This document shows positions 89 to 33,829 of a stretch of 64,000 bases of DNA, piece after piece. A program made the position numbers and the translations under genes. The stretch is from Xanthomonas hortorum pv. cynarae (GTDB taxonomy: Bacteria; Pseudomonadota; Gammaproteobacteria; Xanthomonadales; Xanthomonadaceae): assembly GCF_002939985.1 (NCBI RefSeq), contig NZ_MDFM01000014.1:30026-94025 (forward strand), given 5' to 3'. The stretch's first letter is position 1, and every line of letters starts with the position of its first letter. The notes below the pieces were generated by a model, which saw only the letters and a list, made by a program, of their open reading frames with translations, ran no database searches and had not been told where the DNA came from.

Positions 89-182
89 GCCCGCCTACCG
101 TCGCGGGACACGCCGCAAGTACGTCCGTGTAGGCTCTTACGCGGCATCCATGCCGCGTAAGGTCCCGCGGCGGTAGGCGGGC
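89..182 (+). repeat. Structured dispersed repeat, copy 1
   Basis: The outer arms 89-109 and 162-182 pair over 21 positions with one G-U type mismatch. Inside are a 27-base unpaired strand (110-136, containing AAGTACGTCCGTGTAGGCTC) and a second hairpin at 137-160 (11-bp stem, core GCGGCATCCATGCCGC). The junctions GGGAC/GTCCC and the inner core recur in the other four copies, whereas the outer arms differ in sequence. That pattern implies selection on folding. The family is not associated with any transposase in this window. Confidence 0.85.
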
Positions 183-324
183 AAGGACCGGTCGAGAGTG
201 TCGGTGTGCATGGTGCAAGCAATGCATGACGTGCGTTGCCTAGATAACGGCGTGTCCGATCATCTTCTCAATGCAGTCAAAACTAATGGGCAGGCTTTCA
301 ACAAAGCAACCTACAAACTTTCTG

Positions 325-433
325 GTGCGGTGTCCTCACCGCTTGCGGGACCGTGTGGCGGCATGGATGCCGCCACCGAGCCTCCAGGGACGGATTCACG
401 GCGTGTCCCGCGAGCGGTGAGGGCACCGCGCAC
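325..433 (-). repeat. Structured dispersed repeat, copy 2 (inverted)
   Basis: This is the reverse complement of the same architecture. The outer arms 334-351 and 405-422 pair over 18 positions with one wobble, and weaker pairing continues out to 325 and 433. The inner hairpin at 355-376 has a 10-bp stem (GTGGCGGCAT / ATGCCGCCAC) instead of the TTACGCGGCAT stem of copy 1, with both sides changed together. The asymmetric strand is degenerate here compared with the other copies. Confidence 0.8.
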
Positions 434-469
434 TCGACCGACTCGGTTTTTGACTGCATCTAAACGCCA

Positions 470-1837
470 CTAACTCCGTTTGATCGATATCGCCGCCGGC
501 TCAGGCGGCCGCTTGCTGCCGGCCAGCGGCCACTGATCTTCCACCACATTCTCCTCGCGCCTGGCGTATTGACGCAGTTGCATGCTCAAGCCATCGGCGC
601 CGGGCTGGAGTGGTCGCGCTTGTCCGCGCAGCGCTGGCGGCAAGCCGGCAAGGCGCTGCTCCAGTGCCTGCACATCATTGGAATGATCGCGTAACCACAG
701 CACTGCCGACAGCGCGCGCAATGCGGCCGCGGTGTCCTGGAGCTTGTGCTGATAATGCGCATAGTCAGGGCGTGCCATACCCGCCAACAGACACCCCACC
801 GCATTGGCAATACAGCCCATCGATACCGTGTCCGGCACTGGAATCATTGCCTGCGGCACCGCTTGATCCTGCGCCAGCAGGGTCCGCACCGGCGCGCTAC
901 ACGCCCAGGTATAGGTCGGCGCCATCAGCGCACGGGTGCGCTCGTGGTCAAGCAGACGCAGCGACAACAGATCGTCCCAGGACAGGTCGGTTGCCGGGTC
1001 CTTGCGAACCTCTGTCTCGAGCATCGACAGCAGCATTCGCGATTCGCCGTGCAATGCGTTGCACAGCGAGACCTCATCGACCGCAAGCGGCGCGAATGCA
1101 GTGAGGCATTGCGCGGGCAATGGATGCTTTGTAGGCAGCTCGGCCAGCATGTCAGCAAACAGATGCGCGTTGGCACGCAGCATCGCCGCGCCAACCATCG
1201 GCATGATGAGGTTGTCGCCGCTGCGCAGCAGTACCCGCGCAATCCGTGCATCGGCGCAGACGCCCGCCAGCGCCTGCTCGGTGCGTCCTTGGACGAAGTC
1301 CAGCGCGTTGCTGGTCATCGACAGCTTGAAGTGCGGCGGTGTGGGTAGCGGGGCGGTGGCGCTGGGCGGGAACGGGCTGCGGTAATCCGCATAGCCCGCA
1401 AGATCGCGCGACTTGATCAACTGCGGACTATGCGCGGCCAGCGCGTCGGCATAGGCTTGCGGCCGTTGACGCACGCGGTCCAGGCACCCGTCATAGCGCG
1501 TACACAGTTCCGGGGCCGACGCAGGCCAATCCGGCCGGCGTGGATAGCGTGTGGCGGCGCTTTGCAACGGCATGCCGGCAGGCAGGCGTTCGAACCGCTG
1601 CACGTCCTGCGCAAGCAGCGCCTCACGCTGTGCATCCGGCACCGCGTACGGCAACGACCATAGCGCGACAAACATGTTGGGCCCACGCAGCGGCAGCGGC
1701 GGTTGACGCAGTTGCGCCAACGCCTGCCGTTGTGCCTCAGGAATCGGCCAGCGTGCGGAGATCGCGTACAGGGCAACCAGTAGGGCAACCAGAATGCAGA
1801 GCCCCAGCAAGGCCGACTTGAGGAATTTGGCAAGCAT
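470..1837 (-). CDS. Membrane-anchored hypothetical protein
   Basis: I do not recognise a family. The start at 1837 is preferred over an upstream ATG at 1942 because the protein then begins MLAKFLK followed by one hydrophobic helix (about residues 6-25, LKSALLGLCILVALLVALYA), and a GGAAGG ribosome site lies just upstream. The remaining ~430 residues are predicted periplasmic, helical and Leu/Ala-rich, with several cysteines and no catalytic motif that I can name. The topology fits a type II anchored periplasmic protein. The gene is divergent from the DUF502 gene at 1993. Probably a lineage-restricted conserved hypothetical. Confidence 0.75.
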   Translation of the reverse strand: MLAKFLKSALLGLCILVALLVALYAISARWPIPEAQRQALAQLRQPPLPLRGPNMFVALWSLPYAVPDAQREALLAQDVQRFERLPAGMPLQSAATRYPRRPDWPASAPELCTRYDGCLDRVRQRPQAYADALAAHSPQLIKSRDLAGYADYRSPFPPSATAPLPTPPHFKLSMTSNALDFVQGRTEQALAGVCADARIARVLLRSGDNLIMPMVGAAMLRANAHLFADMLAELPTKHPLPAQCLTAFAPLAVDEVSLCNALHGESRMLLSMLETEVRKDPATDLSWDDLLSLRLLDHERTRALMAPTYTWACSAPVRTLLAQDQAVPQAMIPVPDTVSMGCIANAVGCLLAGMARPDYAHYQHKLQDTAAALRALSAVLWLRDHSNDVQALEQRLAGLPPALRGQARPLQPGADGLSMQLRQYARREENVVEDQWPLAGSKRPPEPAAISIKRS

Positions 1838-1992
1838 GCGTCTGCAACCTTCCGTGGATGAGCTGCGCCATCTTAGAGCGGCCGACACAGCCTCGCGAGT
1901 GGCATGGCGCCGATGCGCACTTGCCGTCTCCCCGGCGAACAAGGCGCGCCATTGGCCTGCACCGGACCCGGCCGAGTGCCTACAATGCGCGG

Positions 1993-2667
1993 ATGTCCGA
2001 ATTCCCCACTCCGCATCCCCGCCCTTCCCTGCAACGGGTCTTTCTGACCGGTTTGCTCACCCTGCTGCCGGTCTGGTTGACCTGGGTGGTGGTGAAGTTC
2101 GTGTTCTCGCTGCTCTCTGGCATCAGCAGCCCGTGGGTGGTGCCGTTGTCCGAACGCATCGCCGCCTCGTTCCCCGACTATCTGGGCTGGATCAAGGCGC
2201 TGTGGGTGCAGAACACCATCGCGCTGATCGCCACCGTGGGCGTGATCCTGTTCGTCGGCATCCTGAGCCGGCGCGTGATCGGCCAACGCCTGTTGCGCTG
2301 GTTCGAAGCGATCATGCGGCGCATCCCGCTGGCGAGCGTGGTCTACGACAGCGCGCGCAAGTTGCTCGACATCCTGCAGACCCAGCCCGGCAGCACCCAA
2401 CGCGTGGTGCTGATCGACTTCCCGCATCGCGACATGAAGTCGGTGGGCCTGGTCACGCGCGTGATCAAGGAACAAGGCACCGGCCGCGAGCTGGCGGCGG
2501 TGTACGTGCCGACCACGCCCAACCCGACCTCCGGCTATCTGGAGATCGTGCCGGTGGAGTTGCTCACACCAACCGACTGGACCGTGGATCAGGCGATGAG
2601 CTTCATCATTTCCGGCGGCGCGGTGGCGCCGGAGTCGGTGCCCTTCACCCGTACCGCGGATCGCTAA
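1993..2667 (+). CDS. DUF502 family membrane protein
   Basis: This 224-residue protein has two transmembrane segments (about residues 15-40, FLTGLLTLLPVWLTWVVVKF, and 75-95, IALIATVGVILFVGILSR). They are followed by the DUF502 domain with the signature PLASVVYDSARKLLDIL and a conserved GLVTRVIKE stretch. The start is the ATG preceding SEFPTPHPRPSLQ, where family resemblance begins; an upstream ATG at 1858 would add a non-hydrophobic, low-quality leader. Function of the family is unknown; these are inner-membrane proteins. The next gene begins four bases after the stop, so the two are probably co-transcribed. Confidence 0.9.
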   Translation: MSEFPTPHPRPSLQRVFLTGLLTLLPVWLTWVVVKFVFSLLSGISSPWVVPLSERIAASFPDYLGWIKALWVQNTIALIATVGVILFVGILSRRVIGQRLLRWFEAIMRRIPLASVVYDSARKLLDILQTQPGSTQRVVLIDFPHRDMKSVGLVTRVIKEQGTGRELAAVYVPTTPNPTSGYLEIVPVELLTPTDWTVDQAMSFIISGGAVAPESVPFTRTADR

Positions 2668-2671
2668 CGCC

Positions 2672-3448
2672 ATGACACAGGTGCGTACCCTCGACGATCG
2701 TGCGGTCCGCCTGTTCATTGCGCTGGCCGCGTTCTTCTGCGTCAACGCGGCGCTGGCCGAGTTCATCGGCGTCAAGATCTTTGCGCTGGAAGACACGCTC
2801 GGCATCGCGCCGTTGAACTGGAATCTGTTCGGCCAGACCGGCTCGCTCAGCTTCACCGCCGGCACCTTGCTGTGGCCGGTGGTGTTCATCATGACCGACA
2901 CCATCAACGAGTTCTTCGGCAGCCGCGGGGTGCGCTTCATCTCATGGGTGGCGGTGGCGCTGATCGGCTACGGCTTCGTGTTTGCGTTCGCCGCGATCGC
3001 GCTGGCGCCGGCCGGGTGGTGGGTCACTGCGGCGCAAAGCCAGGGCGTGCCCGATTATCAGGCGGCGTTCGCGGCGGTGTTCGGGCAAGGGCTGTGGACG
3101 ATCGGTGGGTCGCTGGTGGCGTTTCTGTTCGGCCAATTGATCGATGTCTCGGTGTTCCACCGCATCCGCCGCGCCACCGGCGAAAAGCACGTGTGGCTGC
3201 GCGCCACCGGCTCCACGGCGGTGTCGCAGTTGGTGGACAGCTTTGTGGTGATCTACATTGCCTTCGTGCTTGGCCCGCAGCATTGGTCCACCGACCAGTT
3301 CCTGGCGGTGAGCACGCTCAACTACGTCTACAAGATGGGTTTTGCGGTCGCGCTGATCCCGCTGCTGTATCTGGCCCGGCGCGCCATCGGCGCGTATCTG
3401 GGCGCTGCACGCGCCGAGCAGTTGCGTGAGGAAGCCGCTGCCGACTGA
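2672..3448 (+). CDS. yhhQ: Queuosine precursor transporter (VUT/YhhQ family)
   Basis: At 258 residues this is an integral membrane protein with about six helices and the family signature FIMTDTINEFFGSRGVRF near residue 75. A second conserved segment follows at about residues 150-200 (FGQLIDVSVFHRIRR, TAVSQLVDSFVVIYIAF). YhhQ-type proteins import queuosine precursors (preQ0/preQ1 or queuine) for tRNA modification at position 34. It follows the DUF502 gene directly. The physiological substrate in this organism is inferred from the family. Confidence 0.9.
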   Translation: MTQVRTLDDRAVRLFIALAAFFCVNAALAEFIGVKIFALEDTLGIAPLNWNLFGQTGSLSFTAGTLLWPVVFIMTDTINEFFGSRGVRFISWVAVALIGYGFVFAFAAIALAPAGWWVTAAQSQGVPDYQAAFAAVFGQGLWTIGGSLVAFLFGQLIDVSVFHRIRRATGEKHVWLRATGSTAVSQLVDSFVVIYIAFVLGPQHWSTDQFLAVSTLNYVYKMGFAVALIPLLYLARRAIGAYLGAARAEQLREEAAAD

Positions 3449-3676
3449 ACGCGGCCGGCAAGACGAACGCGCTCACCGCCAGGTACGCGCAGCGCCCGCA
3501 ACGGCGTGTCGCACTCGACCGCCGTGTTTCCGAGAACACGCTCCCGCGCACATCACGACTGCCAGCTCCGTTTTGTCAGCCACTTCTAGCGGACCAAAGT
3601 CGCCCGTCGAAATTTTGTTCAATCCGTCATCGCCCTCGCTGGCCATGCTGTTGCGCCCCGCTATGGACGTCGCGCA

Positions 3677-4267
3677 ATGGATCATCTTGTAGCAATGGCG
3701 AGCTTCGCGCTGGTGTGCTCGATTTCGCCCGGCCCGGTCAACCTGGTCGCGCTGAGCACCGGCGCAAGCGCCGGCGCGCGTGCCGGGCATACCCATGTGA
3801 TCGGGGCCACCGTGGGCTTCGTGGCGCTGCTGTTGTTGGTCGGCATGGGGCTGCAGCAGGTATTGGTGCGCTGGCCGCTGCTCGGACGCGCATTGCATCT
3901 GGCCGGGGTGGCGTTTCTGCTCTACATGGCGTGGCGCCTGCTGCGCGACGATGGCGTCATCGACGCTGCCAGGCCGCGCCCGGCCGCCTCGTTCTGGAAC
4001 GGCGCGGCGATGCAATGGCTCAACCCCAAAGCCTGGCTGGCGGCGACCTCCGGCGTGGCGCTGTATGCAACGGCAGGCACCACGCAACTGGCCGGCTTTG
4101 CGGCGGTGTATGCGCTGATCTGCTATCCCTCGCTGGCGTGCTGGTTGCTGGCCGGTGCAGTGCTGCGGCGGCATGTGCAGGCGCCGAAACAGCTACGCCG
4201 GTTGAACCGGGTATTGGCCGCGCTGCTGGTGCTCAGCGCCGTCTATCTGCTGATGGACTTCTGCTGA
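3677..4267 (+). CDS. LysE family translocator
   Basis: A 196-residue membrane protein with the LysE/RhtB opening: an N-terminal helix carrying CSISPGPVNLVALSTGASAG, then about five further hydrophobic helices and the WLNPKAWLAATSGVALY segment near residues 112-128. The family exports amino acids or small metabolites. The substrate cannot be told from sequence. The last 35 bases overlap, on opposite strands, the end of the AraC-type regulator gene at 4233-5129. This convergent pairing suggests the regulator controls the exporter, which is inference. Confidence 0.88.
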   Translation: MDHLVAMASFALVCSISPGPVNLVALSTGASAGARAGHTHVIGATVGFVALLLLVGMGLQQVLVRWPLLGRALHLAGVAFLLYMAWRLLRDDGVIDAARPRPAASFWNGAAMQWLNPKAWLAATSGVALYATAGTTQLAGFAAVYALICYPSLACWLLAGAVLRRHVQAPKQLRRLNRVLAALLVLSAVYLLMDFC

Positions 4268-5129
4268 GGGCATGGGGTCCGGCACTGCGATAGTGCCCGG
4301 GTGTCACTGCCCAGGCGCGTTTGAAGCTGCGCTGCAGATGCGCCTGGTCGGCATACCCGTGTGCATAGGCGACCTCGGCAATGCCGCCACCGCGACGCAA
4401 AGCCTCACGCGCACGCTGAAACCGGCAATCCAGCAGATACGCGTGCGGGGTCAGACCATGGGCCTGACGAAAACCCCGAATCAGGCGCGGCGCGGGCATC
4501 CCGGCCAGCGTGCACAGTTCGCGCAGCGACACCGCACGCGCGTGATGGGTCTGCAGATACTCGGCCACCTGCCGCATCGGCCCGGTATCGACCGCAACCG
4601 CACGGCTCATCGGCTCCACGTGCAGATGCAGGCGCGCCACGAACGCGATCAACGCGCTCTCGCGTGCAAGCGCATCGGCGTTGTCGTCGATCAGCAGCGC
4701 ATGCATGCGGTCGAAAGCGGCGTAGGCAGCCGGCGTCTGGCACAACGGCGCTGCCAGCATGTGCACATCCGCATTGCCGGCCAAACCGAGTGCGCGTTGT
4801 TGTTCGCGCAGCCACGCCACGTCCAGATACAGCATGCGGAACGACCAGTCCTGCTGCGGATCCGGATTGCAGGCATGCACATCGCCGGGGTTGATCAAGG
4901 TCAGCGACTGCGCGCCTACCTGCGCCCGCACCCGTCCATTGCGGTAACGCGCAAGCCCGCGATCCACCGCACCCACCGACCATTGCTCGTGCGTATGCGC
5001 CGCATAACAGAGCGTGCGGCTGTTGATCACCTGGCGCAGTTCGACGAAGGGCAATGCCGCATCGCGCCAGAACCCCTGCCCGCCTTGCAGGGGCAACTGC
5101 GTCCCGCGTGTCGATTCATCCTGTTGCAT
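4233..5129 (-). CDS. AraC family transcriptional regulator
   Basis: The 298-residue protein has an N-terminal cupin-like ligand/dimerisation domain (roughly residues 20-170, including TLINPGDVHACNPD). The C-terminal double helix-turn-helix AraC domain (about 190-285) has SLRELCTLAGMPAPRLIRGF and the second-helix motif GYADQAHLQRSFKRAWAVTPG. The start at 5129 (MQQDESTRG) is chosen; 5156 is an alternative and neither has a strong ribosome site. The gene faces the LysE exporter and overlaps its 3' end by 35 bases. No effector is predictable. It may repress or activate the exporter. Confidence 0.88.
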   Translation of the reverse strand: MQQDESTRGTQLPLQGGQGFWRDAALPFVELRQVINSRTLCYAAHTHEQWSVGAVDRGLARYRNGRVRAQVGAQSLTLINPGDVHACNPDPQQDWSFRMLYLDVAWLREQQRALGLAGNADVHMLAAPLCQTPAAYAAFDRMHALLIDDNADALARESALIAFVARLHLHVEPMSRAVAVDTGPMRQVAEYLQTHHARAVSLRELCTLAGMPAPRLIRGFRQAHGLTPHAYLLDCRFQRAREALRRGGGIAEVAYAHGYADQAHLQRSFKRAWAVTPGHYRSAGPHALSRSPSADRRR

Positions 5130-5280
5130 GCGCGCAAGACTATCGCACTGCAACATGCGTGTGCGCCGCCCATCTTCAGCGCGGGCTTCATGAATTTCAG
5201 GCGGGCCAGGTGTCGCGGGTGGGTGGCTTGAACGGTGCGGATCGGGCAAGCTCCCCGCTCGCTTGTTCCCGGAGCCGGTA

Positions 5281-7221
5281 ATGCCCCTCAGCTTTTCCCG
5301 CCTGCTGTCCCTGGCCATGGCCGCCATCATGAGCCTGTCGCTGGCAGTGCCCGCCGATGCGGCCAAGAAGAAAACCGGCAAGGCACAGACCTCGCAAACG
5401 CGCGCGAAGGCGAGCAAAGGCAAGAAGACCGCCAAGCCGGCGGCCAGGACCACCAAGGCTGCCAAAGGGGGCAAAGCCGCCAAGGCCAAGCCGCGCGTCG
5501 TCGCCGCGCCCGTGGTGCTGACCAAGGCGCAGCAGCTCAACCTGCTTTACGACCAGTACTGGGATGCCTCGCTCAAGCTCAACCCGCTGCAGGCCACCTT
5601 CCAGGGCGAAACCCGCTACAACGACCAGTTGCCCAACTTCCTGTCGCCGGCGTTCCGCCAGCAGTCGCACGATTTCACCGTGCTGTGGCTGGGCAAGGCC
5701 GAAGCGTTGGGGCCGGACGGTTTGAGCGGGCAGGACCTGCTCAGCTACCAGATCTTCGTGCGCGACGCGCGCAGCGCGCTGGCGGCCGAGCAGTTCCCCA
5801 GCTGGATGCTGCCGATCAACCAGTTCTACAACATCGCCAGCATCGCGGTGGTGCTGGGCTCGGGCACCGGCGCGCAGCCGTTCAAGACGGTCAAGGACTA
5901 CGACAACTGGTCGCGGCGTGCGGTCGGCATCCCCGAGTTGTTCGACCAAGCGATCAGCAATATGCGGGCCGGCATGCAGGCCGGCGTGGTGCAGCCGAAG
6001 GTGCTGATGCAAAAAGTGCTGCCGCAGCTGGACGCGATCATCGCGCGCAATGCCGAAGACAGCCTGTTCTGGGGCCCGGTGCGCAACCTGCCGGCAGACA
6101 TGCCCGAGGCCGACAAGCAGCGCATCACCGCCGAATACAAGCGCTTGATCGAAGTGCGCATCATGCCGGCCTACCGGGAGCTGCGCGGCTTCATCGCCAC
6201 CGAATACCTGCCGGCCTGCCGCGATACCGACGGACTGACGGCGCTGCCCAATGGCGCGGCCTGGTATGCCTACGACGTGCGTCAGAGCACCACCTCCGAG
6301 CTGACCCCGGACCAGATCCATCAGATCGGGCTGGACGAGGTGGCGCGCCTGCAGGGCGAGATCGCCGCGCTGGCCAAGCAGGTCAAGTTCCGCGGCAACC
6401 TGCCCAAGTTCTACAAGTTCATGCAGACCGACAGGCGCTTCGCCTTCCGCAGCGACACCGAATTGCTGGGTTATTACCGTGGGTTGCAGGGCCGTGTACA
6501 AACTGCGGTGCCGCGCCTGTTCAACATCCAGGGCATGCCGGCGCTGGAAGTGCGTGTGGTGGAAGCGCAGCGCGCGCAAGCGGCCGCCAGTGGCTCGTAC
6601 ATGCGCCCCAACGGCGACGGCAGCACGCCGGGCATCTTCTACGTCAACACCTCCGACCTGCCCTCGCGCAAGACCTGGGAGGCCGAGAGCCTGTATCTGC
6701 ACGAGGCCATTCCCGGCCACCATTTCCAGCTCGGGCTGCAGCAGCAGCTGACCGATCTGCCCAAGTTCCGCCGCCTGGGCGGCGAGACGGCGTATATCGA
6801 AGGCTGGGGCCTGTATGCGGAGTCGCTGGGGCGCGAGCTGGGGCTGTATCAGGATCCGTACAACACCTACGGCTATCTGCAGAACGCGCTGTGGCGCTCG
6901 ATTCGTTTGGTGGCTGACACCGGCCTGCACAGCAAGGGCTGGAGCCGCACCCAGGCGATCGACTACATGCTCGACAACTCGGGCATGAGCCGCACCGATG
7001 CCGAAGCCGAGGTCGACCGCTACATGGCCATCCCCGGCCAGGCACTGGCCTACAAGGTCGGCGAGATGAAGATCGCGCAGCTGCGCGAGCAGGCGCAACG
7101 CGAGTTGGGCCCACGCTTCGACGTGCGCGCCTTCCACACCGAAGTGCTCAAGGACGGCTCGGTGCCGCTGGAGATCCTGCAGGACAAGATCCAGCGCTGG
7201 ATCGCCACGCAAAAAGGCTGA
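5281..7221 (+). CDS. DUF885 family putative metallopeptidase, exported
   Basis: 646 residues. The start at 5281 gives a clean signal peptide (MPLSFSRLLSLAMAAIMSLSLAVPADA). A lysine/alanine-rich low-complexity linker follows (residues ~24-70), then the DUF885 domain. The zinc-type motif HEAIPGHH is at residues 474-481, in the context LYLHEAIPGHHFQLGLQQ, and GGETAYIEGWGLYAE follows about 25 residues later. DUF885 proteins are thought to be M3-like peptidases but few are characterised. Predicted periplasmic. The gene is convergent with mmuM, with only six bases between stops. Confidence 0.88.
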   Translation: MPLSFSRLLSLAMAAIMSLSLAVPADAAKKKTGKAQTSQTRAKASKGKKTAKPAARTTKAAKGGKAAKAKPRVVAAPVVLTKAQQLNLLYDQYWDASLKLNPLQATFQGETRYNDQLPNFLSPAFRQQSHDFTVLWLGKAEALGPDGLSGQDLLSYQIFVRDARSALAAEQFPSWMLPINQFYNIASIAVVLGSGTGAQPFKTVKDYDNWSRRAVGIPELFDQAISNMRAGMQAGVVQPKVLMQKVLPQLDAIIARNAEDSLFWGPVRNLPADMPEADKQRITAEYKRLIEVRIMPAYRELRGFIATEYLPACRDTDGLTALPNGAAWYAYDVRQSTTSELTPDQIHQIGLDEVARLQGEIAALAKQVKFRGNLPKFYKFMQTDRRFAFRSDTELLGYYRGLQGRVQTAVPRLFNIQGMPALEVRVVEAQRAQAAASGSYMRPNGDGSTPGIFYVNTSDLPSRKTWEAESLYLHEAIPGHHFQLGLQQQLTDLPKFRRLGGETAYIEGWGLYAESLGRELGLYQDPYNTYGYLQNALWRSIRLVADTGLHSKGWSRTQAIDYMLDNSGMSRTDAEAEVDRYMAIPGQALAYKVGEMKIAQLREQAQRELGPRFDVRAFHTEVLKDGSVPLEILQDKIQRWIATQKG

Positions 7222-7227
7222 GGCAGC

Positions 7228-8190
7228 TCAGCACGCCGCGCGCGCAGCCGCCAACGCGGCGATGTCGCGCGGCGTAGTGCGGCAGCAACCGCCGATCAAC
7301 CGCGCGCCGGCCGCCAGCCACTGCGCGTGCTGGTCGGCCAAGCTGCATGCCGTCGTGCTGCCTGCGTGCCAGCGCTTGTCGCCCGCATCGTAGTGCTCGC
7401 CAGAATTGGGATACACCACCAGCGGCAGCGCTGTCAGTGCAGAGAGGGTCTGCAATGCGGCGGTGACGTGTTCCAGCGCGATGCAGTTGATGCCCACTGC
7501 GATCACCTGCTTGCAGGCATCCAGCGCCGGGATGACCTGCGCCAACGGCGTGCCGTCGCTCAGATGCGCGGCATCGCGCAAGGTGAAGGAAAACCATGCA
7601 TGCAGCTGTGGAAATTCTTCCAGCAGCAGGCGCAGCGCGACGATCTCGTTGGCCGATGGCAGCGTTTCGCACGCCAGTAGATCCACCCCGGCGTCGGCCA
7701 ACGCGGCGATGCGCGGACGATGAAAGTCCATCAGCTGTGCCAGCGGCAGAGCGTAGTCGCCACGGTATTCCGAACCATCTGCCAGATACGCGCCGTAGGG
7801 CCCGACCGAGCCGGCCACCCACAACGGCGCCGCCTGTGGTTGCGACTGCAGATGATCGGTGCGCGCCTGCGCGGCCAATGCCACGCTGCGTGCGATCAGT
7901 GCTTGCGACTGCGCCAGGTCCAGCCCGCGCGCGGCAAAGCCCAGTGGTGTGGCCTGGTAACTGGCGGTGATGGCGCACTGGGCGCCCGCGGCGAAGTAGT
8001 CGCGATGCACCTGATAGATCAGCTCCGGCTGCTCCATCAGCACGCGCGCCGACCACAGCGCATCGTTGAGATCGCAGCCGCGTTGTTCCAGTTCGGTAGC
8101 GAGCGCGCCATCGAGCAGCACATAGCCGTCATGCTGCAGAGCCTGGCTGAAAGGCGCGTCGGCACGCGGCCGGCGGGGAAGAATCGTCAT
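7228..8190 (-). CDS. mmuM: Homocysteine S-methyltransferase
   Basis: 320 residues, the normal length for MmuM. It transfers a methyl group from S-methylmethionine (or SAM) to homocysteine, giving methionine. The zinc-binding cysteines are visible at C236 (GINC) and C302-C303 ([11 protein letters not shown]). The substrate-side motifs [10 protein letters not shown] (~residue 173) and [12 protein letters not shown] (~27) are also present. The ATG at 8190 overlaps the stop of the upstream permease by four bases (ATGA), so the two genes form a translationally coupled mmuP-mmuM operon. S-methylmethionine is abundant in plants, which suits a plant-associated host. Confidence 0.93.
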
Positions 8191-9584: not shown

Positions 9585-9996
9585 CGGCAGGACGGGTTGG
9601 TGGCCCAGCATCCTGCCATGCGCGCGCAGGCGAGCACAGCCACGCGTTGGCCAGCCGTGACGTGGCACCAACAATCCGCGATGCCGTGCGGCGCGTTTTG
9701 CCTCGATGCGCGCAAGCGCGCGTCGCGCCCGACCTGGTCTGGTCTGGTCTGGTCTGGTCTGCACAACACGCTCCGGGCACCCCGGGGGTATCCTCGCCAC
9801 TGTTCATCCGGACCGCTGACATGCCACACGACTTGCACACACGCACCTACGCGCAGACGCAGCGCTGGAGTGCATCATCGCTGCCTGCAGGTATCGCAGA
9901 TGCCATCGCTCTCGCTGTTGCCGCGTGTCGCGCATCCATGCTGGCCGCTAGCGACGCGGGGCAGCGCCAGCTCCCCCATCGCGTGCGAGGCGCCGC
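9585..9996. other. Divergent intergenic region with short tandem repeat
   Basis: This 412-base gap lies between the mmuP start and the glyoxalase-fold gene. I find no supported gene. It carries a five-copy pentanucleotide repeat at 9736-9760 and must contain the mmuP promoter on the minus strand. I see no SAM-riboswitch-like structure by eye. Confidence 0.6.
9736..9760. repeat. Pentanucleotide tandem repeat (GGTCT)5
   Basis: Five perfect GGTCT units run head to tail, preceded by an imperfect unit (GACCT at 9731-9735). The array is 152-176 bases upstream of the mmuP start on its non-coding strand. Five-base units can change copy number by slippage. At this site any effect would be on promoter spacing rather than on reading frame. 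Confidence 0.9.
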
Positions 9997-27985: not shown

Positions 27986-28002
27986 GTCGCCTGGAGAGTC
28001 GT

Positions 28003-29073
28003 ATGTCCACCGTTACCATCCCGCCCTCCTCGCTGCCGGAAGAATCCTTCGCCACCCGGCTGGCCGAATCCGGCCTGCTGCCCGATGCCGCATTGCGTTA
28101 CGGCATCCGCCGACTGTGCGCGCAGCGCTTGCGCGATGAGCGCGGCGACGGCGCCGATGCCAGCGGCGAACGTCAACGCGCGTTTATCGACAGCCTGCGT
28201 GCCAGCGCGATCGCGATCGAAACCGATGCCGCCAATCGCCAGCACTACGAGTTGCCGCCGCAGTTCTTCACCCTGTGCCTTGGGCGCCGGCTCAAATACA
28301 GCAGCTGCTATTGGGACACGACCACGCCGGATCTGGATGCCGCCGAAGAACGCATGCTGGCGCTGTACGGCGAGCGTGCCGAGCTGGCCGACGGCCAGCG
28401 CATTCTGGAACTGGGCTGCGGCTGGGGCTCGCTGACCCTGTGGATGGCCGAACGCTATCCCGGCGCCACCATCACCGCGGTGTCCAACTCACGCCCGCAG
28501 CGCGCGCATATTCTGGAACAGTGCCGCGTGCGTGGCTTGAGCAACGTGCAGGTCATCACCGCCGACGTCAACGCGCTGGCGCTGCCGCCGGGCAACTTCG
28601 ACCGTGTGGTGTCGGTGGAAATGTTCGAGCACATGCGCAATTACCGCGAGTTGCTGGCGCGCGTCGGCAGCTGGCTGGCGCCGGGCGGCAAGCTGTTCGT
28701 GCATGTCTTCTGCCATCGCGATCTGGCCTACCCGTTCGAAGTGGCCGGCGAAGACAACTGGATGGGGCGGCACTTTTTCACCGGCGGGCTGATGCCGGCC
28801 ACCGATACCTTGCTGCATTTCCAGCAGGACGTGGTGATCGAACAGCGCTGGGTGCTGTCGGGCGAGCATTACGAAAAGACCGCCAATGCCTGGCTGGAGA
28901 ATCAGGACCGCCACCGCGAGCAGATCATGCCGCTGCTGAAGCAGACCTACGGCGAGGATGCGCAGCGCTGGTGGCAACGCTGGCGGATGTTCTGGCTGGC
29001 CTGCGCGGAGCTGTTCGGTTACGACCAGGGCCGCGAATGGGGCGTGGCGCACTATCGCTTCGTCAAGCGTTGA
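28003..29073 (+). CDS. SAM-dependent methyltransferase (CFA-synthase-like)
   Basis: 356 residues. The class I methyltransferase motif is ILELGCGWGSLTLWMAERYP (~131-150), with SVEMFEHMRNYRELLARVG (~205) as the post-I acid loop. The C-terminal half is like that of CFA synthases and plant coclaurine N-methyltransferase-like proteins (WVLSGEHYEKTANAWLENQD). It is the second CFA-superfamily enzyme in the operon, and the operon's last gene. The likely substrate is the acyl chain or head group modified by the preceding enzymes, which is inference. Confidence 0.88.
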   Translation: MSTVTIPPSSLPEESFATRLAESGLLPDAALRYGIRRLCAQRLRDERGDGADASGERQRAFIDSLRASAIAIETDAANRQHYELPPQFFTLCLGRRLKYSSCYWDTTTPDLDAAEERMLALYGERAELADGQRILELGCGWGSLTLWMAERYPGATITAVSNSRPQRAHILEQCRVRGLSNVQVITADVNALALPPGNFDRVVSVEMFEHMRNYRELLARVGSWLAPGGKLFVHVFCHRDLAYPFEVAGEDNWMGRHFFTGGLMPATDTLLHFQQDVVIEQRWVLSGEHYEKTANAWLENQDRHREQIMPLLKQTYGEDAQRWWQRWRMFWLACAELFGYDQGREWGVAHYRFVKR

Positions 29074-29116
29074 TCGAAGCAAGGCTGATCGACGCAGCAG
29101 CGCGGACCAAAACGAC

Positions 29117-29141
29117 ATCGCGGCCAGCTGATGGCCGCGAT
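29117..29141. terminator. Hairpin after the lipid-modification operon
   Basis: A perfect 10-bp stem (ATCGCGGCCA / TGGCCGCGAT) encloses a five-base loop, 43 bases after the methyltransferase stop. There is no T-tract. It probably marks the 3' end of the operon transcript, or stabilises it. Confidence 0.55.
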
Positions 29142-29318
29142 GTGTCGGCTTCAATTCGGCTCTTCAACAACGCTGGCACGCAGATCAGCGCGTTGGCTGG
29201 CAATGCCAGCTCGGCACGCAAGCAGGTTTTCGTAACTGGCTGCTGAGGCAGCTGCAATGTTGCAGATCATAGGGTCGCAGCGCGCGATCGCTCGGCGATC
29301 CGCGCGCCGCCATGTGAC

Positions 29319-29666
29319 TCAGCCCGCCGCAGCGGTGATCACGATTTCCACCTTCCACTCCGGCCGCGCCAGTTTGGCTTCGACAGTGGCACGTGCGGGC
29401 GTAAAGCCATGCGGCACCCACTCGTCCCAGGCCTTGTTCATGCCGTCGAAATCGGCGATGTCGGCCAGGAAGATTTCCGCACGCAGGATCTTGGTCTTGT
29501 CGCTGGCCGCCTGCGCCAGCAATTTGTCGATTTCGCCCAGCACCTGGCGGGTCTGCCCGGTGATGTCTTCGCTGGTGTCCTCGGCAATCTGGCCGGCCAG
29601 ATAGCACACGCCGCCATGCACGGCCATTTCGGACATCCGCGGACCTGTATCGAATCGCTGCACCAT
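29319..29666 (-). CDS. RidA family protein
   Basis: 115 residues, one YjgF/RidA domain. The start at 29666 has an AGGAAG ribosome site. Landmarks are the conserved Arg in FTPARATVEAKLARPEW (~residue 92) and the C-terminal VEIVITAAAG, where canonical RidA has a catalytic Arg and a carboxylate. RidA enzymes hydrolyse reactive enamine/imine intermediates from PLP enzymes. This may be a divergent subgroup rather than RidA proper. It lies ten bases downstream of the DUF998 gene, likely on one transcript. Confidence 0.87.
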   Translation of the reverse strand: MVQRFDTGPRMSEMAVHGGVCYLAGQIAEDTSEDITGQTRQVLGEIDKLLAQAASDKTKILRAEIFLADIADFDGMNKAWDEWVPHGFTPARATVEAKLARPEWKVEIVITAAAG

Positions 29667-29676
29667 TTCAGACTTC

Positions 29677-30384
29677 CTACGGTTGATTGACCCGGGCATT
29701 GTCCCGCGAATGCGGCAAACATGCAGCCTGCGCATGTACGTCGCGCGCTAGCCACCGCCCAACCAGCACCATCCAGGACACGATCGCCACGATAGCACTC
29801 TTCTGGCTGATACCCGGCGGCGCGCTGGTCACGCTGACGTGGAACAACAACAGCGCAAATGCCACCAAGCCCAGACCGAATGCCGGTACGAAATGCTGGC
29901 GCCACCAACGATCACGACGGAAATACCAGGATTGCAGCAATATCGCTGCAATTACGCACAGAAATGCGGTATTGGCCGACAACAGATGCACCATCGTCGC
30001 CGCGTCGGGTGCGAGCACCGGCATCCAGCTGTCGCCGATCGCCACCGCGCTCAGGCCTACTGCCGCCATGCAGAACAAGCCCACCACCGTGCGACTGCAT
30101 GCGACCGGCGCCAGCGCCACGTACAGACCCAGCACCAGCCACGCCATGGCTGCGGCCAGCAGGCAATAGGCGGTGCGCAGCAGCAAGCCGTAAGCGCCGT
30201 GCAGGTAGGCACTCAGTTGTGCATCGATCCAGTCCAGATCGCCGCGCAGCCATTGCAGCAACACCACCAGAGCGATGAAGGCCACGCCCGTCCCTGCGGT
30301 GATCGCACCGGCGTAACCGCTCCAGCGTGGCGGACATGCCCGCCGGGTTTGCGCAGCAGCGCGGTGATCGCATGCATTCCCCAT
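29677..30384 (-). CDS. DUF998 family membrane protein
   Basis: 235 residues with six hydrophobic helices (AGAITAGTGVAFIALVVLLQ, then LLAAAMAWLVLGLYVALAPV, TVVGLFCMAAVGLSAVAIGD and others). The topology fits DUF998. The start at 30384 (MGNACDHRAAAQ) is chosen because membrane helices begin soon after; the upstream extension is Arg/His-rich and unlikely. Function unknown. It is followed within 10 bases by the RidA-like gene and is divergent from mprF across 258 bases. Confidence 0.8.
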   Translation of the reverse strand: MGNACDHRAAAQTRRACPPRWSGYAGAITAGTGVAFIALVVLLQWLRGDLDWIDAQLSAYLHGAYGLLLRTAYCLLAAAMAWLVLGLYVALAPVACSRTVVGLFCMAAVGLSAVAIGDSWMPVLAPDAATMVHLLSANTAFLCVIAAILLQSWYFRRDRWWRQHFVPAFGLGLVAFALLLFHVSVTSAPPGISQKSAIVAIVSWMVLVGRWLARDVHAQAACLPHSRDNARVNQP

Positions 30385-30642
30385 CAACAGCCTGTCTCCC
30401 CTGCAACTGTCATCTGATCCATCCGGCTCCCCGACGGCACCTACGCGTGGCTTTGCCCTATGATGCGCGCGGCCGCCATGCGCGGACAAATATCGGCATG
30501 GCCGAACCTTAGCGTTCACTTCATTTCTGCATTGACGCGATCACGCTGCACGCACTTCAATCGACCGGCCCATGCAGACCCCCCGCGCGCGGCACATTCC
30601 GTGCATGCACCTTCTTTCCCTCAAGCAGATCCCGTTGCCCTC

Positions 30643-33207
30643 ATGACGGATACCCCCGTGTCTTCCGAAACGCCCGCCAGCGGTTGGCGTCGCGCCCTGC
30701 CGGTGATCATCAGCCTGGCGATCCTGGCGATGGCGCTGCACGCGCTGTCCTCTCAGTTCACTGACCACGGCTATCGGCAGATCCGCCAGGCGTTCCGTGA
30801 ACTGGGGGTCGGCCAGATCGCGCTCACCCTGCTGCTGGGCTTGAGCAGCTACGCCTGCCTGGTGGGCTTTGACTGGGTGGGGCTCAAGCGCACAGGCAAG
30901 CGCTTGCATCCGGCGCGGGTGGGCATCACCGCGTTCATGGCGCACGCGGTCGGGCAGACATTGGGCTTTGCCGCACTGACCGGCGGCGCGGTGCGCTTGC
31001 GCGGTTATGGCAGCGTGGGGCTGACCCTGGCCGAGATCGGCCAGGTGGTGCTGATGAGCACGCTGGGCTTCGTCTTCGGCGCCTGGGTGCTGCTTGGCCT
31101 GGCCTTGATGCTGGAACCGGAAGCGGCCGCACGCGCCCTGCCGATCGCTGCCGAAGGCATCCGCATCGCCGGCATCGCCTTGCTGGTCGGCTATGTGGCG
31201 ATGCTGGTATTGGTCGGCAGACAGGGCCGCGAATTCGGCATCCGCAGCCATCGCTTCTGGCTGCCCGATCGCACCACGGTGCTCGGCGTGACCGCGCTGA
31301 GCGTGGTCGAACTGGGCCTGGCTGCGGCCGCGTTCTACGTGCTGCTGCCGCCGGATCCGGGCACCGGCTATTTCGGTTTTATCGGCATCTGGTTGGTGGC
31401 GGTGGTCGCCGGCCTGATCTCCACCGTGCCGGCTGGCCTGGGCGTGTTCGAGTGGAGCCTGCTCAAGCTGCTGCCGCATGTCACCCCCGCCGCCGTGCTG
31501 GCCGCGGCGCTGGCCTACCGGGTCACCTACTACATCGTGCCGTTGCTGATCTCGGTGGCAATGGCGGCAGCTTCCGGCCTGGGTGCGCCAGTGCGCGCCA
31601 GTGCGAGCACCGCACGCACGGTGTGGAAGGCGTTTCGCCCGTGGCTGCCGCAGATTCTGGCCTTGGCGGTGTTTGCGGTGGGTGCGGCGCTGATGATCGA
31701 CGGCACCTTACCCACGCCCCGCGCGCGTCAGGAAGTGGCGCCGCTGCCGCTGATCGAAACCTCGCATCTGCTGGTCAGCCTGGGCGGCATGTTGTTGTTG
31801 CTGATCGGCCAGGGTCTGCAGCGCCGCAGCCATGCGGCCTGGGCGCTGGCGCTGGGTGTGTGCGTGCTGTTGCCGCCGCTGTCGCTGTTACGCGGCAGCC
31901 ATATTTCGGTGTCGCTGTCGGCGGCATTGGCGGCGGTTGCGCTGTGGGCGGCACGCCGCGAGTTCTATCGCCAGGGCGCGCTGCTGGACGAAGCCTGGTC
32001 GTGGCGCTGGCTGAGCAATCTGGGCCTGGTGCTGGTGGCCACGTTCTGGCTGCTGTTCTTCGTCTACAGCCATGTCGAATACAGCAACGACCTGTGGTGG
32101 CAGTTCGCCACCTCGGCCAATGCGCCGCGTGCGTTGCGCGCCGCGCTGATCCTGTGCGTGGGCGTGATCGTGTTCGGCGTGGCGCGCCTGCTACGTGGCG
32201 GGCGCCGCCTGATGCCGGCCGCCGATGCGCACACGCTGCAGACGCTGGCACCGATTCTGGCCATCAGCACTGACACCCAGGCCTGCCTGGCGTTGACCGG
32301 CGACAAGGCGTTTTTGCTCGATGAGCAGGGGCGTGGGTTTGTGATGATGCAGCGCTACGGCGGCTCGCTGATCTCGATGGGCGATCCGGTCGGCCCGCCG
32401 GAGGTCGCGCGGGCGTTGATCTGGCGCTTCCGCGAAGAAGCCGACCATATGGGTCTGCGCCCGGTGTTCTACCAGGTCGGCGAAAAATACTGGCAGACCT
32501 ATCTCGACATGGGGCTGACCCTGGTCAAGCTGGGCGAAGAGGCGATCGTGCCGCTGGAAGGCTTCACCCTGGAAGGCCGCGACCGTGCCGATCTGCGCCA
32601 GGCCTGGAACCGCGGCAAACGCGGCGGCCTGACCTTCCGCATGCTGCAATCCGAGCAAGTGGAGGCGGTGCTGCCGCAGCTGGCCGAGGTCTCCGAGCAG
32701 TGGCTGGAAGAAAAAGCCGGCGAAGAGAAAGGCTTTTCGTTGGGCAGCTTCGATGCGGAATACCTGCGCCGGTTTCCGGTAGCGGTGGCCGAGGCGGAAG
32801 GGCAGATCATGGCCTTCGCCAACGTGTGGTGGGCGCCGGCCGGCGGCGAGCTGTCGGTGGATCTGATGCGCCACAGCGCGCAGGCGCCCAAGGGCACCAT
32901 GGACTTCCTGTTTATCGAGCTGTTCCTGTGGGGCCAGGCCAATGGCTACACGCGCTTCTCGCTGGGCATGGCGCCACTGTCGGGCATGGCCGAGCATCGC
33001 CTGGCCGGCCGCTGGAACCGCTTCGCCAGCCTGGTCGCGCGGCACGGCGAACGCTTCTACGGGTTCAGCGGCCTGCGCCGCTTCAAGTCGAAGTTCGCGC
33101 CAACCTGGCGCCCGCGCTATCTGGTCGCGCCGGGCGGCATGCATTTGCCGTCGGCGTTACTGGATGTGACCCGCTTGATCTCGGTGGATCCTGGTCGGCA
33201 GGAATAA
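30643..33207 (+). CDS. mprF: Bifunctional lysylphosphatidylglycerol synthase/flippase
   Basis: 854 residues. The N-terminal ~520 residues form a flippase domain with about 13-14 membrane helices (UPF0104/YbhN-like, with GGAVRLRGYGSVGLTLAEIG). The C-terminal ~330 residues are the DUF2156 aminoacyl-transferase domain (MGDPVGPPEVARALIWRF, VFYQVGEKYWQTYLDMG, ending RRFKSKFAPTWRPRYLVAPG). MprF transfers Lys from Lys-tRNA to phosphatidylglycerol and flips the product outward, lowering surface charge and sensitivity to cationic peptides. Amino-acid specificity is not certain. The gene faces an acvB/virJ homologue 682 bases away. Confidence 0.93.
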   Translation: MTDTPVSSETPASGWRRALPVIISLAILAMALHALSSQFTDHGYRQIRQAFRELGVGQIALTLLLGLSSYACLVGFDWVGLKRTGKRLHPARVGITAFMAHAVGQTLGFAALTGGAVRLRGYGSVGLTLAEIGQVVLMSTLGFVFGAWVLLGLALMLEPEAAARALPIAAEGIRIAGIALLVGYVAMLVLVGRQGREFGIRSHRFWLPDRTTVLGVTALSVVELGLAAAAFYVLLPPDPGTGYFGFIGIWLVAVVAGLISTVPAGLGVFEWSLLKLLPHVTPAAVLAAALAYRVTYYIVPLLISVAMAAASGLGAPVRASASTARTVWKAFRPWLPQILALAVFAVGAALMIDGTLPTPRARQEVAPLPLIETSHLLVSLGGMLLLLIGQGLQRRSHAAWALALGVCVLLPPLSLLRGSHISVSLSAALAAVALWAARREFYRQGALLDEAWSWRWLSNLGLVLVATFWLLFFVYSHVEYSNDLWWQFATSANAPRALRAALILCVGVIVFGVARLLRGGRRLMPAADAHTLQTLAPILAISTDTQACLALTGDKAFLLDEQGRGFVMMQRYGGSLISMGDPVGPPEVARALIWRFREEADHMGLRPVFYQVGEKYWQTYLDMGLTLVKLGEEAIVPLEGFTLEGRDRADLRQAWNRGKRGGLTFRMLQSEQVEAVLPQLAEVSEQWLEEKAGEEKGFSLGSFDAEYLRRFPVAVAEAEGQIMAFANVWWAPAGGELSVDLMRHSAQAPKGTMDFLFIELFLWGQANGYTRFSLGMAPLSGMAEHRLAGRWNRFASLVARHGERFYGFSGLRRFKSKFAPTWRPRYLVAPGGMHLPSALLDVTRLISVDPGRQE

Positions 33208-33250
33208 GGCCGCGTGCCTTTGTGCGAAATGCTTCGGTTTACTGAGGGGC

Positions 33251-33352
33251 GCTTGCGCGCGTGCCGGCATGGGACACGCCGCAAGTACGTCCGTGTAGGC
33301 TCTTACGCGGCATCCATGCCGCGTAAGGTCCCACGCCGGCACGCGCGCAAGC
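33251..33352 (+). repeat. Structured dispersed repeat, copy 3
   Basis: The outer arms 33251-33275 and 33328-33352 pair over 24 of 25 positions (GCTTGCGCGCGTGCCGGC side). The inside has the same 27-base asymmetric strand as copy 1, with no differences that I can see, and the same TTACGCGGCAT inner stem. Only the outer arms have a new sequence. Confidence 0.88.
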
Positions 33353-33558
33353 ACCTTCGGTTGGCGTCGGTAGCTGAAGGAACAGCGTTGCCTGGTTGAT
33401 TGATCATGCCTTGAAGCGTGGCCTTCGCTGGCGAAGTCATGACAAAGCGATAGACGAATGCAGCATCGAGTATCGACTGCGGAATCCGCAGGCATGACGC
33501 CTACATAAAGTCATTCATAAAGTCATTGCTTGCCGATCAGCAGTCGCGAAAAGTGGAA

Positions 33559-33665
33559 GCGTGGTGCCGCGTCCAGGGGCGGGACCGTGTGGCGGCATGG
33601 ATGCCGCCACCGAGCCTACATGGACGTACTTGCGGCGTGTCCCGACACTGGATGCGGCACCGCGC
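33559..33665 (-). repeat. Structured dispersed repeat, copy 4 (inverted)
   Basis: In inverse orientation, the outer arm GTGGTGCCGCGTCCAG (33561-33576) pairs with CTGGATGCGGCACCGC (33648-33663) with two wobble-type differences, and GGGAC/GTCCC junctions lie inside. The inner stem is the GTGGCGGCAT type seen in copy 2. The asymmetric strand (reverse complement AAGTACGTCCATGTAGGCTC) differs by one base from copies 1, 3 and 5. Confidence 0.85.
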
Positions 33666-33727
33666 GCAAGCCGAACAAGCAGACGAAGTCAGCTGGTTTC
33701 GTGGGAATGCTTCGGTTTGCTGCGGGC

Positions 33728-33829
33728 GCTTGCACGCGTACCGGCATGGGACACGCCGCAAGTACGTCCGTGTAGGCTCTTACGCGGCATCCATGCCGCG
33801 TAAGGTCCCATGCCGGCACGCGTGCAAGC
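33728..33829 (+). repeat. Structured dispersed repeat, copy 5
   Basis: The outer arms 33728-33752 and 33805-33829 pair over 24 of 25 positions. Compared with copy 3, a G-C pair in the outer stem is replaced by A-T on both sides (GCTTGCACGC with GCGTGCAAGC, against GCTTGCGCGC with GCGCGCAAGC), a compensatory change. The interior is unchanged. Confidence 0.88.

Follow-up and report, generated by a model that had tools for sequence, protein, structure and literature searches.

The five repeats in the window, the 64 kb stretch of DNA analysed here, are probably members of a dispersed family of RNA elements to which a dimer of CsrA/RsmA binds, a judgement that applies to this explanation as a whole. 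A transcript of each copy in the GGA orientation would fold into a long outer stem, P1, bearing a small hairpin, P3, followed by a second, P2, and the two ANGGAX hexaloops, about 20 nt apart, would hold one CsrA/RsmA dimer. In the window's genome the element would have spread to over 250 copies, mostly arranged in unlike pairs (a + b) whose GGA strands point outward, and the collective effect would be titration of RsmA/CsrA by a distributed sponge and/or retention on 3′ ends. The structure, its covariation, the selected strand, the loop motif, the copy number and the distribution are taken directly from sequence comparison.

Structure of the five copies

The window was scanned with a covariance model (R2), which revealed exactly five strong matches of 86.6 to 106.1 bits, the next best match reaching 17.3 bits. 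All five copies located by an earlier sequence-only reading of this DNA were recovered. Copy 1 (type A, 100.4 bits, fold z −9.1) occupied 85..186, previously given as 89–182, with the GGA strand on the minus strand; its P2 hairpin TACACGGACGTA at 120..131 (minus) forms a covarying helix with the hexaloop ACGGAC, and the loop end of P3, GGCATGGATGCC, with the hexaloop ATGGAT, lay at 143..154 (minus). Copy 2 (type B, 96.7 bits, fold z −9.5) occupied 327..429, previously 325–433, with the GGA strand on the plus strand, the P3 loop end GGCATGGATGCC at 360..371 (plus) and P2 at 383..394 (plus) as TCCAGGGACGGA, in which TACANGGACGTA appears in its compensated version. Copies 1 and 2 are inverted partners. 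Copy 3 (type C, 106.1 bits, fold z −10.7) lay at 33251..33352 with the GGA strand on minus, P2 TACACGGACGTA at 33286..33297 (minus) and the P3 loop end GGCATGGATGCC at 33309..33320 (minus). Copy 4 (type D, 86.6 bits) lay at 33561..33663, previously 33559–33665, with the GGA strand on plus, the P3 loop end GGCATGGATGCC at 33594..33605 (plus) and P2 TACATGGACGTA at 33617..33628 (plus). Copy 5 (type C, 104.6 bits) lay at 33728..33829 with the GGA strand on minus, P2 TACACGGACGTA at 33763..33774 (minus) and the P3 loop end GGCATGGATGCC at 33786..33797 (minus). Relative to shuffled sequences the five copies gave fold stabilities of z −5.0 to −10.7 on either strand. A check of 33200–33900 for promoter- or terminator-like sites found none.

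On the GGA strand the core of the element forms a three-way junction in which P1 carries P3 and then P2. One strand of the repeat had been described as asymmetric; this strand is itself the covarying hairpin P2, whose stem reads TAC/GTA in some copies and CCC/GGG or TCC/GGA in others, and these two-sided changes identify the element as a three-way junction. Folding of single sequences gave P2 of the model in just one of the five window copies, which counts against the RNA-element reading.

Covariation of the stems

The compensatory stem changes proposed by the sequence-only reading were confirmed, with covariation far above chance, and the alignments indicate that base pairing of the five copies is under selection. 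In a 25-row alignment 92.8% of cells were paired, compared to 62.5% after shuffling, with scores of 0.708 and 0.162 respectively, and 25 of 25 P1 pairs had changed on both sides. A 38-row alignment gave 94.7% compared to 60.0% and scores of 0.840 and 0.184; changes on both sides occurred in 34 of its 38 pairs, a count that is weak alone since the shuffle mean was 30.5. The rows of both alignments were hand-picked among copies with good arms, so that the pairing of the outer stem was partly selected; the choice of rows did not favour pairing in the two inner hairpins.

Compensation was also observed in place. When copy 4 was compared across 11 species of the genus, both partners had changed in four pairs, compared to a mean of 1.1 in shuffles, none of 500 of which reached four. 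Most of the remaining changes read as G·U on the GGA strand. Three pairs were each disrupted in a single row, and one pair was mismatched in 10 of the 11. This alignment (A5) used 11 of the 14 distinct type-D rows (15 were listed, including one repeat), leaving out L273, the second L284 row and L291, and orthologues were presumed for the two genomes with two type-D copies in the spacer. In genus g9 two species share a site containing a copy, a terminator-like hairpin recognised by eye and a second, inverted copy; the arms of the two species are largely different, yet self-complementary.

The arms had been described as unrelated between copies. This holds in other genera, where most copies have their own outer stem of 25–35 bp around a conserved core and 113 of 169 non-genus copies remained after merging arms at least 70% alike. 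It does not hold throughout the window's genome, as the copies at 33251 and 33728 share arm type C, and types A, B and D (copies 1, 2 and 4) recur elsewhere in the genome. If P1 need only be a stem, its sequence would be free to drift with compensatory changes while the core stays fixed.

Strand bias of arm mismatches

Arm mismatches were strongly biased between the strands. Outside the genus the 169 copies contained 140 G·U and 29 A·C mismatches when read on the GGA strand; counted per copy, 79 favoured G·U, 17 favoured A·C and 73 were ties (p 1e-10). After merging similar arms the bias persisted at 94 G·U to 18 A·C in 113 copies (p 1e-13), and inside the genus there were 296 G·U to 17 A·C in 175 copies, which represent just 8 arm groups. 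As G·U is tolerated and A·C is not, the folded strand is the opposite of that described in the sequence-only reading. The bias further indicates that selection acts on just one of the two strands, in its single-stranded form, and so speaks against a cruciform; of the earlier proposal of selection on RNA or cruciform structure, the selection on structure is retained, for one strand, and the cruciform is disfavoured. The same mismatch bias would be expected from a strand-specific single-stranded DNA structure.

GGA loops and CsrA/RsmA

The hairpin search gave 323 detections corresponding to 283 distinct hairpins. Of these, 253 have two ANGGAX hexaloops, each with a Watson-Crick closing pair, 25 have one such loop and 5 have none; at least three of the last group look like chance hits. 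The loops were 20 nt apart in 227 of the 253 copies having both, and both lie inside the outer stem. According to the available text of PMC4005645, the high-affinity class of CsrA sites is an ANGGAX hexaloop sitting directly on a stem, which is the arrangement found in the element. The SELEX consensus is RUACARGGAUGU and CsrA bridges sites separated by 10–63 nt, with an optimum above 18 nt, in the accessible part of PMC7652899; the 20 nt spacing of the element falls within this range. With hexaloops directly on their stems and about 20 nt apart, both loops could hold one dimer. The same source allows that very stable hairpins are possibly unfavourable to CsrA, and the P3 stem of 8–9 pairs counts against CsrA binding in this respect. 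Transcription of the element in this genome, binding of the protein and its titration are predictions drawn from these features.

A strict hexaloop search of E. coli CsrB found one such site only, indicating that known sponges also rely on loops of other kinds. All 40 element-bearing genomes tested (40 of 40) have a csrA gene, which says little since csrA is, to our knowledge, near-universal in the class. The patchy distribution of the element, which was found in 20 of 213 genera with at most 10 places scored per genome, is unexplained by CsrA alone.

Related RNAs

CsrB/CsrC and RsmX/Y/Z also carry GGA sites, by which they sequester CsrA/RsmA. These RNAs pack many sites into the product of a single dedicated gene, or of a few such genes, unlike the element, which is spread over many loci with two sites apiece. 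In the available part of PMC7694677 no homologue of the CsrB/RsmX/Y/Z type is reported by BLAST from any sequenced Xanthomonas. The same text describes RsmU of X. campestris, an RNA that binds RsmA and is cut free from a 3′ UTR; it differs from this repeat in being a single locus, reported as more than 90% conserved in the genus and as found in no other bacteria (PMC7694677).

The best Rfam match within 33200–33900 was between copy 5 and TwoAYGGAY (RF01731), with 41.1 bits and an E value of 4.3e-5 at 33717–33840 on the minus strand; the whole window gave no match to RF01731 at the gathering score of 43. Among 16 element-bearing genomes, RF01731 exceeded gathering at nine places in three genomes, eight of them in G052 and G042 away from element places and one, in G198 (43.3 bits), that reads as an element copy. 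In G052 and G042 together 8 of 23 RF01731 places coincided with element places, all below threshold. TwoAYGGAY belongs to the same Rfam clan as CsrB (CL00106) and, in the accessible text of PMC4333381, is predicted to bind CsrA. Like the element it has a poorly conserved outer stem and two adjacent hairpins with A-N-GGA-Y loops. The differences are that the second hairpin of the element has, in place of a long stem, a stem of 3 bp that bears a side bulge and sits on a short base, and that in this genus the element is present in hundreds of copies, dispersed and paired. Alignment of copy 5 to TwoAYGGAY left several non-pairs in the second hairpin.

The core of the element was also found within the consensus of Ysr224 (RF02770), a Yersinia sRNA, on the TCC strand. 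The window copies scored 18.2–22.5 bits against RF02770, below its gathering score of 70, and a Pectobacterium copy found by the core pattern scored 73.3 bits and has a visible outer stem. The Ysr224 model lies on the TCC strand and stops inside the 3′ arm, so that it lacks both the outer stem and the GGA-loop reading. This orientation counts against the RNA-element reading proposed here, whereas the reported transcripts of Ysr224 copies in Yersinia count in its favour. On these comparisons the element is a mostly sub-threshold relative of TwoAYGGAY that overlaps Ysr224, and the earlier suggestion of an undescribed structured RNA is reduced accordingly; it stands in so far as the descriptions available present neither family as a repeat scattered through genomes, with an outer stem that differs from copy to copy. 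A literature text search for core strings returned unrelated papers only.

Copy number, mobility and genomic setting

The inner-hairpin pattern had 257 exact matches in the window's genome and the reversed control had none. In a sample of the phylum it matched 32 of 398 genomes, all within the window's class. Neighbouring copies were in +− arrangement in 85 of 108 pairs, and among 100 listed of the 257 places in the window's own genome the +− neighbours were unlike a/b pairs in 41 of 41 cases. Since the GGA strands point outward, a transcript crossing a pair in either direction would carry one GGA-form copy.

High copy number and inverted pairing would also be expected if the element were a non-autonomous DNA transposon or REPIN-like unit, whose hairpins serve as single-stranded transposase sites and whose mismatch bias reflects folding of single-stranded DNA. 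The patchy distribution, the division of copies in the window's genus into subfamilies that share flanks and into two main spacer classes, and the presence and absence of the element at the same site in relatives agree with this account. However, it leaves the two CsrA-type loops unexplained. No transposase was recognised by eye among the 25 largest clusters of 478 predicted neighbour proteins from 96 loci, which appeared to be ordinary metabolic, regulatory and transport genes. Of 36 genomes with the element, 8 gave no match to a Y1-type transposase (E 1e-5), two one-contig assemblies and one two-contig assembly among them, compared to 6 of 24 element-free genomes. A 131-base query from the window matched none of 72,556 plasmid or 50,697 phage records, though a Pectobacterium copy matched 15 plasmids (about 82%) and 5 of 5,426 E. 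coli genomes, one such match that was inspected lying near IS26 and broken transposase genes. Type A and B copies share sequence beyond their arms, but no target duplication or clean empty site, as for a MITE of a known transposon, could be defined among relatives, whose intergenic spacers were too diverged to align. We consider mobility of this kind an unlikely origin of the observed features.

The sequence-only reading had offered a REP-like element linked to a RAYT. REP, BIME and REPIN sequences are likewise high-copy extragenic palindromes of alternating orientation, but published Xanthomonas REPs (GTAGGAGCGC...) differ in sequence from the element. No GT(A/G)G head directly precedes P1 or P3 in the alignments; GTAG occurs within TGTAGGCTC of many copies, with GTAC or GGAG in others, apart from the inner stem. 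Together with the Y1 pattern, this led to rejection of RAYT/REP as a requirement.

Among 140 classified clusters, 56 lay between convergent genes, compared to 121 of 579 neighbouring gene pairs at the same loci, and 9 lay between divergent genes, compared to 77 of 579; genes were predicted with a home-made caller, and the counts exclude 38 clusters lying at the edges of loci and 34 that fall within predicted ORFs. Between tandem genes, single copies had the GGA strand in the neighbours' direction in 20 cases and opposed to it in 27, showing no preference. A simple cis-acting mRNA element, which should follow gene direction, is disfavoured by this lack of orientation bias. A role as a barrier at mRNA 3′ ends has been proposed for some REPs, and the preference for convergent settings, together with the terminator-like hairpin between the two copies at the g9 locus, could indicate a bidirectional barrier whose stem blocks exonucleases or antisense read-through and whose loops bind some other factor. 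A pure barrier would need neither the conserved core nor the loops, and the GGA strand is favoured regardless of the neighbours' direction, which makes this rather improbable. For the CsrA/RsmA-binding element, the mainly intergenic copies and the excess of convergent settings point to 3′ read-through as the likely source of RNA.

The active form might instead be the TCC-form RNA, with UCC loops pairing with GGA/Shine-Dalgarno sites of mRNAs or with GGA-form copies. Rfam annotates Ysr224 on the TCC strand, and the available description has it as multi-copy and expressed, with transcripts reported in Yersinia, including multi-copy transcripts in Y. ruckeri; the arm mismatches nonetheless point to the GGA strand, by about 5:1 in copies from outside the genus and 17:1 in those from within it, and we consider activity of the TCC form very unlikely. 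Quasipalindrome correction, a template-switch repair mechanism, could keep arms identical in the absence of selection and would suit arms that are near-perfect even where copy-specific, but it predicts neither the G·U/A·C asymmetry nor compensation in the short P2 and P3 and is the least credible account, although such repair may add to arm identity.

Possible implications for CsrA/RsmA regulation

The window's Xanthomonas-like genome carries no fewer than 257 elements, each offering two predicted high-affinity sites for RsmA, despite the lack of a reported CsrB/RsmY/Z homologue in Xanthomonas in the accessible text of PMC7694677. The family may thus represent a large hidden store of CsrA/RsmA binding sites, and if even part of it is transcribed, RsmA titration in these bacteria would need rethinking and repeat number would be a heritable dial on a global regulator. 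A broader and tentative extension, which we hold to be possible but doubtful, is that many gammaproteobacteria adjust their level of free CsrA/RsmA also by a decentralised sponge, beside their few CsrB/RsmY/Z genes. Such a sponge would consist of tens to hundreds of dispersed dual-site elements, whose RNA comes from read-through past the ends of genes and whose number evolves by copying; the outward unlike pair would make it independent of direction, and the UCC-form from the opposite strand could kiss and silence the GGA-form. The element links two little-understood Rfam entries, TwoAYGGAY and Ysr224, and suggests that the boundary of Ysr224, perhaps also its strand, needs revision. With more than 100 independent stems, the family allows selection on RNA to be gauged by the ratio of G·U to A·C.

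Alignment A1, which preceded those described above, used 24 of 72 distinct copies. Up to 65 places per genome were scored in another survey and at most 150 places in a further scoring. At least 120 matched stretches entered the later counts.

Structure and base pairing of the repeat

A covariance model of the element family was built and then searched in the window and in other genomes. The five structured repeats proposed in the sequence-only reading were borne out: R2, one of two such models (R1 and R2), matched strongly at five places in the window, and any other match there scored far lower. Copies 1 to 5 lie at 85-186 (-), 327-429 (+), 33251-33352 (-), 33561-33663 (+) and 33728-33829 (-), with outer arms of types A, B, C, D and C, respectively. 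Each consists of an outer stem, P1, and two small hairpins, P3 and P2. The fold z-scores were -5.8 to -10.7 on the strand carrying the GGA loops (the GGA strand) and -5.0 to -10.3 on its complement (the TCC strand). Rfam at the gathering threshold gave no match in the whole window. A lone GGCATGGATGCC at 41522-41533, within a long ORF and with the rest of the element absent, is probably due to chance.

Base pairing was examined in an alignment of 25 diverse copies picked by hand, in which 92.8% of the cells were paired compared to 62.5% after shuffling, with a covariation of 0.708 compared to 0.162; sliding the partner by one column reduced pairing to about 40%. For 38 copies aligned on the GGA strand, 94.7% were paired and covariation was 0.840 versus 0.184. 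As the outer stem was used as a criterion for selecting copies, the inner hairpins give the cleaner test of pairing. In the 38-copy alignment the TAC/GTA pairs of P2 were replaced by CCC/GGG, and seven of the eight P3 pairs showed changes on both sides. Copy 4, traced across 11 genomes in a single intergenic region, had four pairs with both sides changed, which none of 500 shuffles reached; the remaining changes were mostly G·U, besides three pairs broken in one row each and one persistent mismatch. In two species of genus g9, copies at the same site have largely different arms, yet the two arms of any one copy remain complementary, a few mismatches at most aside. The copy is followed there by a terminator-like hairpin and then an inverted second copy, which a contig end truncates in one of the species. 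The g9 species G458 is without this pair, and G456, G457 and G458 are without a further nearby copy.

Loops and functional strand

The GGA-strand consensus contains CANGGATG in P3 and TACANGGAYGTA in P2. In 253 of 283 copies both loops are hexaloops of the ANGGAX form with a closing Watson-Crick pair, and in 227 of those 253 the spacing is 20 nt. The high-affinity CsrA site has been described as an ANGGAX hexaloop placed directly on a stem, N and X being free (PMC4005645). PMC7652899 reports the SELEX consensus RUACARGGAUGU, a loop of six bases, and bridging between two sites that are 10-63 nt apart. The element matches the ANGGAX rule in fixed and free positions alike. The window contained six stemmed ANGGAX pairs 10-40 nt apart, five of them being the five copies; simulated first-order windows averaged 0.4, with a maximum of 2. 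Applied to E. coli CsrB, this strict search recovered a single stemmed hexaloop, so it cannot serve to detect CsrA sites in general. csrA was present in all 40 element-bearing genomes tested, as is expected in this class. Two CsrA-family matches were observed in the window's genome (C16:72177 and C39:31902) and one in each of the five other genomes of the genus covered by this search. For Xanthomonas, PMC7694677 reports no CsrB or RsmY/Z homologue and one 3'-UTR-derived RsmA sponge, RsmU.

A function residing in a single strand would tolerate G·U but not A·C. Arm mismatches on the GGA strand of 169 copies outside the genus were 140 G·U against 29 A·C (79 copies with a G·U excess, 17 with an A·C excess, 73 ties), or 94 against 18 with similar arms reduced to one, and 175 related copies inside the genus gave 296 against 17. 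Between tandem genes the G·U:A·C counts were 16:2 outside and 35:5 inside the genus with the GGA strand parallel to the genes, and 27:11 and 31:1 with it opposite, the bias thus appearing in both orientations. It marks the GGA strand as the functional one, which is the complement of the strand originally written out for the repeat.

Relation to known RNA families

At a relaxed threshold copy 5 scored 41.1 bits against TwoAYGGAY (RF01731; gathering threshold 43), which belongs to the same Rfam clan as CsrB. TwoAYGGAY gave no match in 20 further loci at E 0.01 or in 18 loci at gathering. Gardner and Eldai (PMC4333381) predicted CsrA binding by TwoAYGGAY, and the family is listed for human gut, gammaproteobacteria and Clostridiales (Weinberg 2010, PMC2864571). 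A search of 16 element-bearing genomes at E up to 1 gave RF01731 matches in 11, with up to 45 places per genome, and above-threshold matches in three. Eight of 23 places in genomes G052 and G042 were element copies but the eight above threshold were not, and in G198 the above-threshold place reads as an element copy. On this evidence the element grades into TwoAYGGAY. The above-threshold places of G052 and G042 (loci L389 and L390, for example) lie off the element places found by R1. L390 shares the long outer stem but differs in having a long second hairpin, and the two architectures occur side by side in one genus.

Ysr224 has the same core as the element, but on the TCC strand. A Pectobacterium copy reaches the Ysr224 threshold and has paired outer arms, which the Rfam model cuts off. 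Ysr224 appears, as a temperature-responsive RNA, in a table of the top 20 sRNA families by prevalence (PMC9029176), and in Y. ruckeri its copies reportedly give transcripts with differing profiles (PMC12112432). No paper presenting the element as a dispersed, paired repeat in Xanthomonas was found in the open-licence literature.

Distribution and arrangement

An exact pattern of the inner hairpin and junction occurred at 257 places in the window's 5.06 Mb genome (128 and 129 by strand), and a separate pattern from the other side of the core at 144; both reversed controls gave 0. R2 matched at each of the 150 places that were scored, giving at least 150 copies. At E 0.01, R1 matched all 35 genomes of the genus, with 1 to 6 matches in three of them; neither of the two further genera drawn from the family gave a match. 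In one other family of the order, three genomes had 38, 44 and 6 R1 matches; another gave 3, and yet another one weak match. R2 at E 0.001 matched 32 of 398 genomes of the phylum, the window's included, spanning 20 of 213 genera, every one in the window's class; a second genus of the family was positive in 3 of 4 genomes. A pattern scan of named genomes gave at least 80 stretches, with Marinobacter, Microbulbifer, Methylotuvimicrobium, Stenotrophomonas, Halopseudomonas and Pectobacterium among those listed. Eight contigs of draft G042 (C2, C5, C7, C8, C10, C11, C13 and C14) carry a copy no more than 200 bases from their start. Assemblies therefore seem to be interrupted at the element, and draft copy numbers may be underestimated.

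Within the genus the copies form subfamilies: the outer arms of types A, B, C and D are unlike, and the inner stem is of type a in A and C and of type b in B and D. Among the 100 places listed for the window's genome, all 41 +- neighbouring pairs combined one a and one b, with cores mostly 118-124 or 201-206 bases apart; three -+ pairs were unlike as well and two ++ pairs were alike. With all groups pooled, 85 of 108 neighbouring pairs were +-, the GGA strands facing outwards. Outside the genus copies mostly have their own arms, typically 25-35 bp, and reducing similar arms to one left 113 of 169 copies compared to 8 of 175 inside. At L205 4725-5141, L211 2153-2513 and L156 3106-3755, three or four copies follow one another head to tail in a single orientation, with a period of ~145-185 bases, unlike the usual inverted pairs.

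Gene context and spread

Counted with a home-made gene caller after excluding 38 edge and 34 in-ORF clusters, convergent settings were enriched (56 of 140 copy clusters versus 121 of 579 gene pairs) and divergent settings depleted (9 of 140 versus 77 of 579). Single copies in tandem settings had no orientation preference (20 with, 27 against), which does not support a simple cis role. An outward-facing pair would guarantee one GGA copy whichever direction is transcribed. The surroundings of copies 3-5 gave no promoter- or terminator-like site.

The element has multiplied in the window's genus, and the account of its spread is the weakest part of the analysis. Types A and B have flanks in common beyond the arms. 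A linked RAYT-type transposase, also suggested from the sequence, was not upheld: no enzyme could be tied to the element, a search for Y1 transposases came back empty for 8 of 36 element-bearing genomes and for 6 of 24 others, and no transposase stood out among the neighbouring genes. A search for a clean empty site found none. At locus L304 (G031), which matches window 1-460, a relative without copies was observed, and the same intergenic space holds a GTAGGAGCG start like published Xanthomonas REPs. Locus L193 of a Chromatiales contig that also has an element copy contains a group II intron domain match (RF02001) at 7394-7560. A copy resembling the Pectobacterium one was seen on plasmid NZ_CP058883.1 of a wastewater E. 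coli (L418), next to IS26 and the broken transposase genes of ISKpn26 and Tn5403, and 14 of the 15 plasmids found to carry such a copy were predicted to be conjugative.
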